Notes under the pieces: generated by a model
What the model saw: the letters and a program-made list of their open reading frames with translations, nothing else
What the model was told of the DNA's origin: nothing
The model's database searches: none
Translations under genes and position numbers: made by a program
Virus record (IMG/VR): IMGVR_UViG_3300009149_000012
Span: 62,001 to 126,000 of that record
Strand: one strand, 5' to 3'
DNA: 64,000 nucleotides
Origin: a virus
Shown: positions 26,913 to 62,025 of the stretch, piece by piece
Numbering within the stretch: position 1 is the stretch's first letter
Layout: each line of letters begins with the position of its first letter

Positions 26913-27548
26913 TTAACAACACTCATCGCCGCCCCGCCCCGCCCACTGCGGGAGCTTCACCTCTCGCAAGATGTTGAACTTCTTTCCAGCAATTGCCGAA
27001 AAGATTTCGAGGTAGGGTTGTAGGGATTCGTTGGTGGGGGCCTTCTCACGAAGGGCAGCGACGGCACGGAAGAAACGATGGCGCACGCGACCTTGGGTCA
27101 GGCCAAGGGCTTCGGCGACTTCGCTCTGACACGTCGTTTCCCACATGCCGACCAGGATGTTGACGTCGATGCTGTCTTTGAAGAGTGTTGGAAGATCTCG
27201 GCGAAGTTCTTCCTCGGAGACGGAGGGGATGCTCAAGAGGAACTTGATCCGTTTGATCCCCCGGTCGAGACGGTAACTGACGGCTGCCTGCGTGATGCCA
27301 AAGATGATGGCGATGTCGGCCTGCCGCTTGTGGGAAATGAAGTACAGTTCGATGAGATCCGCTTCACGGGCTGGGATCCGGGGTAGGAGCGGGGCGACCT
27401 GTTCCTCGAAGGTTGGAACGTCGTCCGTTAGCTGTTCTGGCAGCGACTCCCCGTCCCACTCCTCGAAGAATTGGAGCAGTGTGTCGGGAGCAGCGAAGCG
27501 TGTTGCGATTTGTGCGGGGTCGAGAGGGATCACATAGCCACTGCTCAC
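26913..27548 (-). CDS. sigma-region-4-like DNA-binding regulator
   Basis: 211 aa. Residues about 55-105 (RIPAREADLIELYFISHKRQ then ADIAIIFGITQAAVSYRLDR) match the shape of sigma-70 region 4: a leading helix, then a helix-turn-helix that begins (Q)ADIA..FGI(T/S)QAAVS. A second, weaker HTH (SEVAEALGLTQGRVRHRFFR) follows near residue 145. No regions 2 or 3 are seen. Such proteins can be phage sigma-like late factors, anti-sigma partners or antiterminators. It borders the virion block, which fits a switch regulator; this role is inference. Confidence 0.7.
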   Translation of the reverse strand: MSSGYVIPLDPAQIATRFAAPDTLLQFFEEWDGESLPEQLTDDVPTFEEQVAPLLPRIPAREADLIELYFISHKRQADIAIIFGITQAAVSYRLDRGIKRIKFLLSIPSVSEEELRRDLPTLFKDSIDVNILVGMWETTCQSEVAEALGLTQGRVRHRFFRAVAALREKAPTNESLQPYLEIFSAIAGKKFNILREVKLPQWAGRGGDECC

Positions 27549-27557
27549 GAGGGCCTC

Positions 27558-29342
27558 CTACTTGGCCCGGTTTCCACTCTTGAGGAACCCGGCAGACGGT
27601 CGAAAGAACGTTTCGAGAAAATCTTCGGGGTTCACATCTACATCTTGGAGGTGCTGCGTAGCAGCGGCCTCATCTTCACTCGGATCGACGGTCTCGAACG
27701 GAATGTCTGTCCGAATGGACATGAGATCTGCATTCAGCTTGACCCTGATCTCGGCATCACGCAATCGTTGGTACTGAGATTTGGTCACCCCGGCGAGTCC
27801 AGAAGCGAAGATTCCGTCGACAGTATCATGAGAACGTACCAGTGATGCAAGAATTTTCTTAGGAACACGGCCCACTCCGGGGAGATTGTCCGACGTATCC
27901 CCCGCAAGTGCCCGAAGAGAAACCATTTTCTCTGGGGGAACGTTGTACTCGAATTCGACCAAGTCAGGATCGAATAGGATCTCTTTTCGACCACCGACGG
28001 ACGGGACGAGAAGCACATCCGTGCGCGTCACAAGTTGAAGGAAGTCTCGGTCCGTCGAGATGATCACGTTCCGGTCGCCCTTGAGAGGGCCTCGAACCAA
28101 CGTTCCGATGACGTCGTCGGCCTCTTCCTCAGGGTGAAACGCCTGTGCAATGCCCAGGTTGGGGAGCAAGTTGTCTCGCAGGTAGGTAATCTGATCGAAA
28201 AGCGGCACCCCATGGGGCTTTCGATTGGCCTTGTACTCGGGATTCAAAGCCTTTCGCCGTTGACTCGACCCATCCCAGCACACGAAGAACATCGCGTCGT
28301 GATAGCGCTTGCGCAGTGCGCCAAGGCTTCGCAAAAACGCGTAGATCACACCGGTCGGCCGACCTTTTGAATCCGCTAGATCTTGCATGCCCGGTGCGTA
28401 CAACGCACGGAACGCCATGTTATGCCCGTCTACGATGATGTTGCTGATCATGTCGTCACCCTCGAATTCCTGACACCGTTGGTTTACACCGTCGATCCAG
28501 GACCACTTTCGGAAAGCGTCTCGAAGCGGAACCAAATCGAGACTGGGGATGGGCTTGTTCAAGATTTGAGTTTGTTCAAGCCACTGAGTCAGCATATGCC
28601 AGCGCTGTAGAAGGGCTGCCGCCTGAGACATGTCGAGCATGTCGACATCCTCTGCGATCTTCGAAGGCTGAAGCTGTTGGTAGAAGGACAATACCCGGGA
28701 GTATTCTTGAAAACCGTCCCGGATGGGCACGATCTGACCCGCCCACCCGGCTACGACCTGAGCCTCTTGTGCCCAAGCCTTCAACTCCTGCACTCGTTTC
28801 AAAAACGTCATAGGGCGAGCTTTACGAACCAGTTGCAAGAACGAACGGGGAAGGGTGAGCAGTGACTGCTTGGACCGAAGCTGCACGAAGACCTGGACGG
28901 ACTGTTTCTCTGGGATTTCCTCGACCACCGTCGCCTGAATGTTTCGGTAGGGGCCCGAAAGAATCAGAACTGTGTCGTCGACGCCGATCCCTTGATCTAC
29001 CTCAGCATTGGCCTGTTTTTTGAACTTGTTGATCTCCCGATCCGATATGGTCGCCAGGCAACGACACCGCCCCGTGCCTTGGGTTAAGATCGCCGCAACG
29101 TAACGATTCGAATTGGGGAGACGAAGGTAGTCGGAGTCGGGGCGCGTTCGCTGAGCAAACGCGTAGCCATCCACCAAGTAGTGCACCATGCGGTCGTCGC
29201 CGATCTGCGTGACGACGGCTGGGATGTACACCTCGGTGCCTCTCAACGCCTTGGAGATTGACCGTTGGAGAATCTCTGGATCCTCCCCATCACTTTTTGA
29301 GTTGAGGGCCAGCACGACCCAATCAGTCGTCATCAAGGCCAC
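27558..29342 (-). CDS. fusion of a NusG-like domain and a FEN-type 5'-3' exonuclease
   Basis: 594 codons in one uninterrupted frame. Residues about 5-110 resemble the NusG/RfaH NGN domain (TDWVVLALNSKS; GTEVYIPAVVTQ; YLVDGYAFAQR). Residues about 115-165 resemble KOW (VDDTVLILSGPYRNIQATVV). After a helical linker, residues 298-594 are a FEN/T5-type nuclease: IIVDGHNMAFRALY, FVCWDGSSQRRKALNPEYKA, EEEADDVIGT, STDRDFLQL and the H3TH segment LAGDTSDNLPGVGRVPKKIL. FEN removes RNA primers and flaps; NusG binds RNA polymerase. An internal ATG at residue 298 with GAGGG upstream could give FEN alone. Overlaps dnaX start/stop by 10 nt. Confidence 0.9.
   Translation of the reverse strand: MALMTTDWVVLALNSKSDGEDPEILQRSISKALRGTEVYIPAVVTQIGDDRMVHYLVDGYAFAQRTRPDSDYLRLPNSNRYVAAILTQGTGRCRCLATISDREINKFKKQANAEVDQGIGVDDTVLILSGPYRNIQATVVEEIPEKQSVQVFVQLRSKQSLLTLPRSFLQLVRKARPMTFLKRVQELKAWAQEAQVVAGWAGQIVPIRDGFQEYSRVLSFYQQLQPSKIAEDVDMLDMSQAAALLQRWHMLTQWLEQTQILNKPIPSLDLVPLRDAFRKWSWIDGVNQRCQEFEGDDMISNIIVDGHNMAFRALYAPGMQDLADSKGRPTGVIYAFLRSLGALRKRYHDAMFFVCWDGSSQRRKALNPEYKANRKPHGVPLFDQITYLRDNLLPNLGIAQAFHPEEEADDVIGTLVRGPLKGDRNVIISTDRDFLQLVTRTDVLLVPSVGGRKEILFDPDLVEFEYNVPPEKMVSLRALAGDTSDNLPGVGRVPKKILASLVRSHDTVDGIFASGLAGVTKSQYQRLRDAEIRVKLNADLMSIRTDIPFETVDPSEDEAAATQHLQDVDVNPEDFLETFFRPSAGFLKSGNRAK
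28481..28490 (-). promoter_or_regulatory. internal GGTGTAAACC motif ahead of the FEN half
   Basis: GGTGTAAACC lies about 30 nt upstream of the in-frame ATG at 28451 where the FEN domain begins. The site is identical to that upstream of the ligase gene (45546-45555). This suggests a separate transcript for the nuclease half. Confidence 0.45.
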
Positions 29343-30682
29343 GTCCGATCAAAGAGGGCCGTCCACTCGGCTGGCGACATGGTGGTGTTGAAGCCAACCG
29401 AGTCAAAGCGGGGTGGTGCGATAGCCTTCGCAGGCCGTGAGCCCCGGGGATGGTCCGCTGGAATCCCGTACGTGTCGACTTCCGTATGTGCGTACGGGTC
29501 GTCGCCCAGATTCCCAATGGTCTGGGGAAGCTTGGGTGCCGGTGTCGGGGTTGGTGCAGGGGTGGGCTGTGGTGCCACCTCGGAAGCCGCTTGTGGGGCA
29601 ACCGGTTGGGGAGCGGCAGGGACCATGAGCGGCGCGCTGAGAACCGGCTGCGCTACCGGAGCGGTCACAACCAAGATCGCCTCACACACGAGCGACGTTC
29701 GGGTAACAGATCGCAAGTTGGCGAACCTCGAAGCCAACCTGATCACTGAATCGCCGTACTTCTTGTGAACCTCTTCCGCCAAGGTTTTGTCCAGGGCAGA
29801 ATGGTCGACGAACATGTTGTTCGCCCACCGATACGAGTTCATGGCGGCTTCAGCGATTCCAGCGGCGACGTCACCGGGTTGCACCTGTTCACAAGCTGAC
29901 TCGATGAATGCCGCTGCTTGAGCCGGCGTGTCGAGCTTGAGCAAGATCTCGAAGTAAGTCTTGGTGAGGGACAGGCGCAGATAGCCCCGAACCGATTCGA
30001 GGGTGACGGGGCCCATCTGGGAGATCATCTCCAAACGGTTCATGACGTCCCGGACGTGACCCTGACAGTAGTCGATGACCGTGAGCACACCCTCATCCTC
30101 AAACTCGACGCCTTCAGCCTTGAGGATGAAAGCCATCCGCTCGAAGATGTCTTCCGGTGTGATGCGCCGAATCGAATGTTCTTCACAGCGAGAACGGATC
30201 GTCCCCCGGATCTTCTCGGGCTCGGTCGTGCAAAAGATGCCCACCATTCGCTTGTCTTCGATGGGCTTGAGCAAGACATCCTGCGAATCCCGACTCATTC
30301 GGTGCATTTCGTCGAACAGGAAGATCCGTTTGATGGCGTCAAGTACCGCAAAGGGCAGGTTGTCCACGATCGCCCGGATGTGCTCGATCGTTCCTTTGCT
30401 CGCTGCATCCAACTCGCTGAACGCCTGGCTGTTTTCCTCCAGGATGCTTATGCAGTTGTCGCATTCGTTGCAGGGCTCCTGATCCTCCGTCAAAGCCTGG
30501 CAGAGCAGTGCTCTCGCCAGAATTCGGCTAAGAGTTGTCTTGCCCTGTCCATGCCCCCCGCTGAAGATGTAGCTCGTGTTCAGGGCAGAACCGGACTTAA
30601 GGCGCGCTTTGAGGATTTGGATCGCACCTTCCTGCCCCAACACATCCGAGAACCTCAGCGGTCGGTACTTGACGTCCCACAT
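29333..30682 (-). CDS. dnaX: DNA polymerase III gamma/tau-like clamp-loader ATPase
   Basis: 449 aa. AAA+ core with WDVKYRPLRFSDVLGQE (box II-like), Walker A GGHGQGKT (42-49), four-Cys zinc module C61, C71, C74, C77, Walker B FLFDEMH (121-127) and sensor/arginine-finger SRC at 164-166. These are hallmarks of DnaX. The C-terminal part after residue 340 is a Pro/Ala linker plus a short tail, much shorter than tau. It opens the sliding clamp together with the delta and delta' genes at 49-51 kb. Overlaps the NusG-FEN gene. Confidence 0.94.
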   Translation of the reverse strand: MWDVKYRPLRFSDVLGQEGAIQILKARLKSGSALNTSYIFSGGHGQGKTTLSRILARALLCQALTEDQEPCNECDNCISILEENSQAFSELDAASKGTIEHIRAIVDNLPFAVLDAIKRIFLFDEMHRMSRDSQDVLLKPIEDKRMVGIFCTTEPEKIRGTIRSRCEEHSIRRITPEDIFERMAFILKAEGVEFEDEGVLTVIDYCQGHVRDVMNRLEMISQMGPVTLESVRGYLRLSLTKTYFEILLKLDTPAQAAAFIESACEQVQPGDVAAGIAEAAMNSYRWANNMFVDHSALDKTLAEEVHKKYGDSVIRLASRFANLRSVTRTSLVCEAILVVTAPVAQPVLSAPLMVPAAPQPVAPQAASEVAPQPTPAPTPTPAPKLPQTIGNLGDDPYAHTEVDTYGIPADHPRGSRPAKAIAPPRFDSVGFNTTMSPAEWTALFDRTWP

Positions 30683-61365: not shown

Positions 61366-62025
61366 TCACCTTAGCCATTTCCGAATGGCGTTATCGCTCA
61401 CACCATACTTCCGACCCACCCCAGTGAATCCCAGTTTTTTGATTTCCTCTTGAAGCACGGATAGGGTTGGCCGCTTGACTCTCCGGTATGGGAACTGGGC
61501 ACACCTCCCGCACTGACCCCCCTGTTGCCCTACAAGAGCACCACACTTGCAAGAATGTATTTTTCTCGCATTTCTTCCTGCATGTGTCGGTAGCTGGCTG
61601 GCACAATTGGGGCAAACAAGACGTAGATTCTCTATACGATGATCGTCGGCCACACCGTTTTTATGATCCAGCACCATAACCAAGGACTGCCCACGCCAAA
61701 CGGGGGGCAGCCCGCAGACAGAGCACTCATTTTCCAGCACTTTTTCTTGTAGCAATCGCCGCTTTAAGTGACCACGACCAAAGGACGAGTTTTCAACTAG
61801 AACAGAATCAAGGGGTTTCTTAGGCCGAATCCCATGAGGATGCACTCCGAAATGAGAAACATCGACACCCTCCTCAGCCAAACGACGGTGAAGGGTTCGA
61901 CAGTTTCCCCCTTTGTTAACCAAACCGAAATGTGCCAAAACCTCGGTATAAGTGTGGCTTGAAGCTACCAAAGACCTGAATTCATCCGAGGTCAGGCCCC
62001 AAATAGGGCTGGTCCGTTTACGCAT
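61366..62025 (-). CDS. HNH endonuclease with flanking DNA-binding regions, 219 aa
   Basis: N-terminal region LTSDEFRSLVASSHTYTEVL and RTLHRRLAEEG resembles helix-turn-helix. HNH core: NECSVCGLPP, LVMVLDHKNGVADDHRIENL, RLVCPNCASQLPTHAGRNAR. A second Cys group (CKCGALVGQQGGQCGRC) is a zinc ribbon. C-terminal HTH (FTGVGRKYGVSDNAIRKWLR). Pattern fits homing-type HNH endonucleases (HNH_3/AP2-like group). Inserted amid tRNA genes. GGTGTGGA box lies upstream. Confidence 0.9.
   Translation of the reverse strand: MRKRTSPIWGLTSDEFRSLVASSHTYTEVLAHFGLVNKGGNCRTLHRRLAEEGVDVSHFGVHPHGIRPKKPLDSVLVENSSFGRGHLKRRLLQEKVLENECSVCGLPPVWRGQSLVMVLDHKNGVADDHRIENLRLVCPNCASQLPTHAGRNARKIHSCKCGALVGQQGGQCGRCAQFPYRRVKRPTLSVLQEEIKKLGFTGVGRKYGVSDNAIRKWLR

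Follow-up and report, generated by a model that had tools for sequence, protein, structure and literature searches.

Does one frame of a viral genome really join a NusG-type transcription factor to a FEN-type exonuclease and, if so, does the gene yield one product or two? To our knowledge, of all transcription factor families only NusG/Spt5 is shared by the whole of cellular life. FEN belongs to the core nucleases of replication and repair, and one would not expect the two to be physically joined and this arrangement to be conserved. An earlier note, made from the letters alone, had described such a frame in a 64,000-nucleotide stretch (positions 62,001 to 126,000) of IMG/VR virus record IMGVR_UViG_3300009149_000012, which is the whole of the DNA analyzed here and is referred to as the window. 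The features of the locus are as follows.

27558..29342, minus strand: NusG–linker–FEN fusion open reading frame (ORF), 594 aa, GTG start at 29342
28830..29342, minus strand: NGN-KOW (NusG-type) module, residues 1-171 (PHROG 6386, family profile, AF2, Foldseek)
28887..28982, minus strand: KOW motif, residues 121-152 (Pfam PF00467, 22.3 bits)
28452..28829, minus strand: MID segment, residues 172-297, mostly predicted helical, low confidence
27561..28451, minus strand: FEN/PolI-type 5'-3' exonuclease, residues 298-594, candidate short product (PF02739 and PF01367)
28449..28451, minus strand: internal in-frame ATG (M298), candidate start of a free FEN (NTG conserved in 18/18; ORF start in lineage L016)
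28459..28463, minus strand: GAGGG, Shine-Dalgarno (SD)-like, 7 nt before the internal ATG (pairing energy)
28481..28490, minus strand: GGTGTAAACC, internal copy of an upstream-enriched motif (no counterpart in relatives)
29333..30682, minus strand: clamp-loader ATPase, always upstream of NusG or NusG-FEN (PHROG 5846, 5.8e-53; synteny)
26913..27548, minus strand: sigma-like neighbor, 211 aa, two sigma-70 region-4-like matches (Pfam Sigma70_r4, 1.5e-13; synteny)

Architecture of the fusion gene and identity of its halves

The frame is open across 27558–29342 on the minus strand, the strand having been missing from the earlier note. An alternative start, an ATG at 29333 that gives 591 aa and overlaps the clamp-loader stop as TGATG, is likelier than the listed GTG to be the true start of the ORF. 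Residues 1–171 form the NGN-KOW part, residues 172–297 the MID segment, and residues 298–594 a complete FEN/PolI-type 5'-3' exonuclease, and profiles matched both halves, as had been proposed for this single frame. The same fused ORF was found in 17 further non-redundant contigs with about 40–47% identity to that of the window, and no stop codon lies between the halves in any of the 18 lineages. Because the fusion recurs in this way, a chance open frame or an assembly join is ruled out, and the gene fusion is confirmed to be real and conserved across lineages. In a full-length structure model, confidence was high for the NGN-KOW and FEN parts and low for the mostly helical stretch that connects them, and the identities of the two halves as NusG and FEN are secure.

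PHROG 6386 ("transcription antiterminator") matched residues 55–155 (3.5e-6), and the KOW match in the window protein (1.1e-4) lay exactly at the cut-off. The curated Pfam NusG model did not match the window protein itself; among 26 family members, Pfam matched NusG in 8 and KOW in 17. When the family profile was compared with PDB, NusG proteins were matched across both domains, the best being Thermotoga (T. maritima) NusG (2.2e-12). Besides, an AF2 model of the first 171 residues reached a mean pLDDT of 93.1, and all 35 Foldseek matches in PDB with E<=0.001 were NusG, RfaH, or Spt5 chains or complexes containing them, with a probability of 1.00 for the NGN-KOW half. Thus, the NusG-like fold that the earlier note had ascribed to residues 1-170 was upheld. 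Whole-chain TM-scores were about 0.4-0.5, probably owing to a differing orientation of the two domains, and single-domain chains fitted better (target-normalized TM-scores of 0.69 for RfaH 8pen and 0.77 for KOW 2mi6).

NGN precedes KOW, which is the order that membership of the NusG family requires, and the G-Y-x-F strand of NGN, a candidate part of the surface that would contact the clamp helices of RNA polymerase, is near-invariant both in the fused clade and in its sister clade described below (Tyr60, Phe62, and Leu56 invariant; Gly59 near-invariant). The KOW Phe of NusG (F165 of E. coli) contacts Rho and S10. This hallmark of a housekeeping NusG is not found in the present family: Arg156-Ser157 is invariant in 26 of 26 members, and IFGR of T. 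maritima NusG is aligned with LRSK. Since the classical Phe is replaced by an invariant Arg, the protein is a paralogue rather than a housekeeping NusG, and its KOW partners may differ from those of classical NusG. This would suit an elongation or antitermination factor peculiar to the phage that has given up Rho recruitment and is perhaps partnered by the adjacent sigma-like protein.

The second half contains both domains expected of a FEN, i.e., an N-terminal resolvase-like nuclease domain and a C-terminal SAM-fold (H3TH) domain; residues 302–551 match 5_3_exonuc_N (PF02739, 4.8e-32) and 5_3_exonuc (PF01367, 6e-14). A Foldseek search with the full-length model retrieved mycobacterial FEN 6c33 (7.8e-18), as well as ExoIX and T5 FEN. 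In alignment with Taq Pol I, the active-site carboxylates (D305, D357, E407, D409, D410, D431, D433, D482, and D485) are near-invariant. Both Pfam domains, the fold, and the complete carboxylate set accord with the assignment of residues 298-594 to FEN, and the intact catalytic residues suggest that this half is an active nuclease.

The MID segment is variable in length and sequence (11-22% identity among members) and has one constant Trp. The lowest model confidence in the fusion protein is at residues 224–296, within this segment, which remains attached to NusG in L016, a lineage in which the gene is split. A comparison of MID with PDB gave weak, chance-like matches only (best, 0.043).

Relatives and gene neighborhood

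Among annotated phage records, none covers 80% of the fusion protein, and the matches there cover the FEN part only. The NusG half alone matched one annotated record, LR745208.1 (L002), a 485-kb uncultured phage with a free-standing NusG of about 205 aa in the order clamp loader, NusG, and sigma-region-4-like. In IMG/VR, the whole protein as a single query sequence gave no matches; alignments of two sequences each, for NusG and for the sigma-like protein, yielded 41 loci there, some of which share contigs, and a broader alignment retrieved no further contigs. The NusG alignment found no relatives in 84,980 bacterial and archaeal genomes. It should be noted that the records may mostly be fragments.

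In group A, NusG, MID, and FEN occupy one frame of 557–658 aa; it has 18 non-redundant members including the window, on huge-phage contigs of up to 513 kb. In group B, its sister clade, NusG stands alone, with a length of about 180–205 aa and an identity of 21–28% to that of the window, and FEN is missing from the interval up to the sigma-like gene. A Toprim protein, a metallopeptidase, the clamp loader, NusG, and the sigma-like protein are neighbors in both groups, and in some stand-alone-NusG loci the Toprim protein was undetected or extra genes lie in between. In all 18 fused lineages, the fusion gene is located between the clamp-loader and sigma-region-4-like genes. A tree built from the joined sequences of the clamp loader, NusG, and the sigma-like protein parted the two groups by one very long branch. 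As the sister clade has a stand-alone NusG at the same site, NusG must have a role that does not depend on FEN.

The neighbors themselves show several peculiarities. The 211-aa sigma-like protein, in which region 2 was unmatched in Pfam, adjoins NusG or NusG-FEN in both clades (L002:8579-9172) and is possibly a late-transcription factor or coactivator. Two clamp-loader ORFs (L002:6161-8047 and L019:6275-9004) are enlarged by an insert interrupting the match to the window homologue; that in L002 is intein-like, beginning with Cys and ending with SNC. In L011, the clamp-loader match is split over two open frames about 1.5 kb apart.

Internal start and candidate short product

The earlier note had pointed to an in-frame ATG at 28451 with GAGGG upstream and had suggested from it a short free nuclease beside the long form. 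We found both elements on the minus strand with a spacing of 7 nt; the duplex energy of GAGGG is -6.9 kcal/mol, within the best 6.5% of the in-frame positions of the ORF. The ten codons that precede the conserved N-x-x-x-D-G core of FEN contain ATG, GTG, or TTG in 18 of 18 fused members and ATG in 14 (chance expectation per sequence, 51% for NTG and 13.5% for ATG), and windows farther upstream in the linker contain NTG in 5–13 members and ATG in 0–4. Under the codon frequencies of the ORFs themselves, the chance of such counts is 5e-6 for NTG and 1e-9 for ATG, or 1.5e-4 and 6e-6 with subclade L021–L034 counted once, values that overstate independence because the members are related and the remaining kinship is ignored. 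Anti-SD pairing exceeds the in-frame ORF background in the 12 members outside this subclade (mean rank, 0.21; P about 1e-4) and is not clearly above it within the subclade (mean rank, 0.35; P, 0.10); SD-like support is absent in L004. Save for the unclear SD in L021-L034, the family thus has the conserved internal start and ribosome-binding site of a dual-start gene.

A natural split of the gene bears on the same point. In L016, NusG–MID (320 aa) and FEN lie in separate frames with an ATGA overlap, and FEN starts at the equivalent ATG with GGGAG upstream. Since L016 is the sister of the fused L015 with 100% support and is nested inside the fused clade, the split is secondary, and since it is one contig, an assembly error or a sequencing indel is possible. 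Besides, the FEN of Rhodococcus phage E3 (gp143) begins at a nearly equivalent place. Because the start codon is found in every fused member and L016 is split there, the short free nuclease is well supported as a reading of sequence, and two products from one gene are likely. We infer that the internal start is actually used.

The best-surviving alternative, which we consider possible although clearly the lesser prospect, is that the gene makes a single bifunctional polypeptide only, i.e., an operon gene fusion with the halves independent on one chain and the internal Met as a relic, which could be that of the ancestral FEN start. Operon neighbors commonly fuse, and Met, Val, or Leu at this position may suit the first beta-strand, yet the residue varies among these three while most codons stay start codons; a good SD-like sequence is missing in several members, but the start codon persists throughout the fused clade although the linker around it is so poorly conserved, and in L016 it opens an ORF of FEN alone.

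The nuclease had also been credited with a motif of its own, and this part of the claim stood only in that GGTGTAAACC is present at 28490–28481 on the minus strand and belongs to an upstream-enriched set. Its first base is 39 nt upstream of the internal ATG, unlike the 15–18 nt typical of the upstream copies of this phage, and in other members the 200 nt ahead of the FEN core contained no copy, L019 having only GTGTAG at -146. Lacking a counterpart in relatives, the motif is poor evidence for a separate nuclease promoter, and we rejected it as a conserved internal promoter.

No other 6-mer in the window is as strongly enriched upstream of genes as GGTGTA: on the minus strand, 10 of 28 copies fall in the 60 nt that precede a gene start (1.0 expected; p, 3e-8). 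These mostly have A or G as the next base and often lie 15-18 nt before the start codon.

61093, 58888, 57334, 51138, and 45555, minus strand: GGTGTA upstream copies, first five
40278, 37489, 34615, 33100, and 26906, minus strand: GGTGTA upstream copies, other five

In six group-A relatives (L021, L024-L026, L029, and L034), GTGTA[AG] occurs 18–21 nt before the NusG-FEN start, the copy in L026 overlapping the clamp-loader stop. In the flanking 80 kb, GGTGTA is weakly enriched near starts (4 versus 1.2; p, 0.03), with three copies exactly 17 nt from the start. GGTGTA may be a phage promoter element.

Proposed mechanism and comparison with known systems

In nine group-A records (149–513 kb, including the split L016), the fused or split FEN is the only match to PF02739 or phrog_107, and eight of the nine have a separate family-A polymerase (DNA_pol_A) match. 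With a single FEN per genome, it is very probable that this FEN serves replication in group A. The group-B records searched contained no PF02739/phrog_107 FEN anywhere, and RNase H1, an alternative primer remover, was found in no record searched of either group. For the stand-alone-NusG clade (L002, L009, L035-L044, and others), in which FEN and RNase H1 are both absent, host PolI is one option for primer removal. In the 485-kb record G001, the family-A DNA polymerase match (426418-430125) consists of three separate pieces in one open frame of 1763 aa, which hints at inserts in frame, for example inteins.

NusG of this family is present in exactly one copy in each of 16 genomes searched. A phage RNA polymerase as its partner was rejected, as the beta' family had no match in twelve records, and NusG here would therefore act on the host enzyme. 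In NusG paralogues, the NGN domain makes the contact with RNA polymerase (PMC7819879), and the NGN of the fusion would be expected on the clamp helices of host RNA polymerase.

We favor, with a probability of about 0.6, a dual-product gene of huge phages that encodes a NusG paralogue riding on host RNA polymerase with a linked FEN and, from the internal start, a free replication FEN. In the long form, NGN would occupy the clamp helices as above, and a flexible helical linker would join the NusG part to an active FEN-type 5' nuclease. The conserved internal ribosome start would additionally yield FEN alone, which would act as the replication flap endonuclease and remove primers and flaps beside the FEN-less family-A polymerase. 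As to origin, a FEN gene may have entered the clamp-loader–NusG–sigma-like operon, joined NusG in frame, and kept its own start codon, the change presumably having run from stand-alone NusG to the fusion.

The tether may serve an end of its own or may be a mere record of gene fusion, and the long form might couple transcription to DNA processing. It seems unlikely that the long form is what matters, i.e., that a FEN tethered to RNA polymerase clears R-loops, RNA primers, or flaps at transcription–replication encounters or processes nicks at which the clamp would be loaded for late transcription: 18 of 19 lineages have retained the fusion next to the clamp-loader and sigma-like genes, and no recognizable RNase H1 occurs in the phages checked, but L016 manages with separate proteins, and forks need FEN anyway. 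Similarly doubtful is the fuller version, in which the sole flap endonuclease is tethered to transcribing host RNA polymerase via the NusG paralogue and clears R-loops, primers, and flaps where transcription meets replication, an untethered replication copy coming from the internal start. Least probable is that NGN-KOW has left RNA polymerase and is now a nucleic-acid or replisome targeting module for FEN, for, although the gene follows the clamp-loader gene, an invariant Arg stands where KOW classically has Phe, and KOW folds can bind nucleic acid or ribosomal proteins, the sister clade has NusG at the same site with the same sigma-like neighbor and no recognizable FEN, and the G-Y-x-F strand is held in both clades.

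If the long form of the favored dual-product gene works on RNA polymerase, it would offer a tractable system for transcription–replication encounters in large, heavily transcribed and replicated genomes. Nature has in effect set up the comparative experiment itself, with a sister clade of stand-alone NusG, the fused clade, and the split gene of L016.

Taken singly, both halves are known, and the joint architecture and dual start were not found in the annotated phages, structure libraries, and papers searched. The literature search found no paper combining NusG, flap endonuclease, fusion, and phage; papers mentioning both NusG and flap endonuclease are, by their titles and abstract openings, not about such a fusion, and the words "fused" and "fusion" are absent from a NusG review (PMC7819879). 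The fusion shares the NGN-KOW order and fold and the G-Y-x-F strand with the NusG/RfaH/Spt5 family (RfaH, LoaP, UpxY, and the PHROG 6386 phage antiterminators), and, like the specialized NusG paralogues, it is one extra NusG on a mobile element. However, it differs from that family in the attached nuclease, in the invariant Arg-Ser in place of KOW Phe-Gly, and in its cluster of replication and sigma-like genes. With FEN/PolI 5'-3' exonucleases (T5 D15, SPO1 gp32.85, mycobacterial FEN, and ExoIX) it has in common both Pfam domains, the acidic residues, and the fold, whereas the FENs of annotated phages match the FEN part without a NusG half.

In T4, the clamp, clamp loader, gp55/gp33, and RNase H are the late-transcription and replication set of one phage. 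The present phages likewise combine a clamp loader, a sigma-like factor, and a FEN-type nuclease, but their nuclease forms one polypeptide with a NusG paralogue. In infB and lambda S, an in-frame internal start gives a long and a short product. The second in-frame start of the fusion gene would give a C-terminal short form in the same manner, whereas the two products here would serve transcription and replication.
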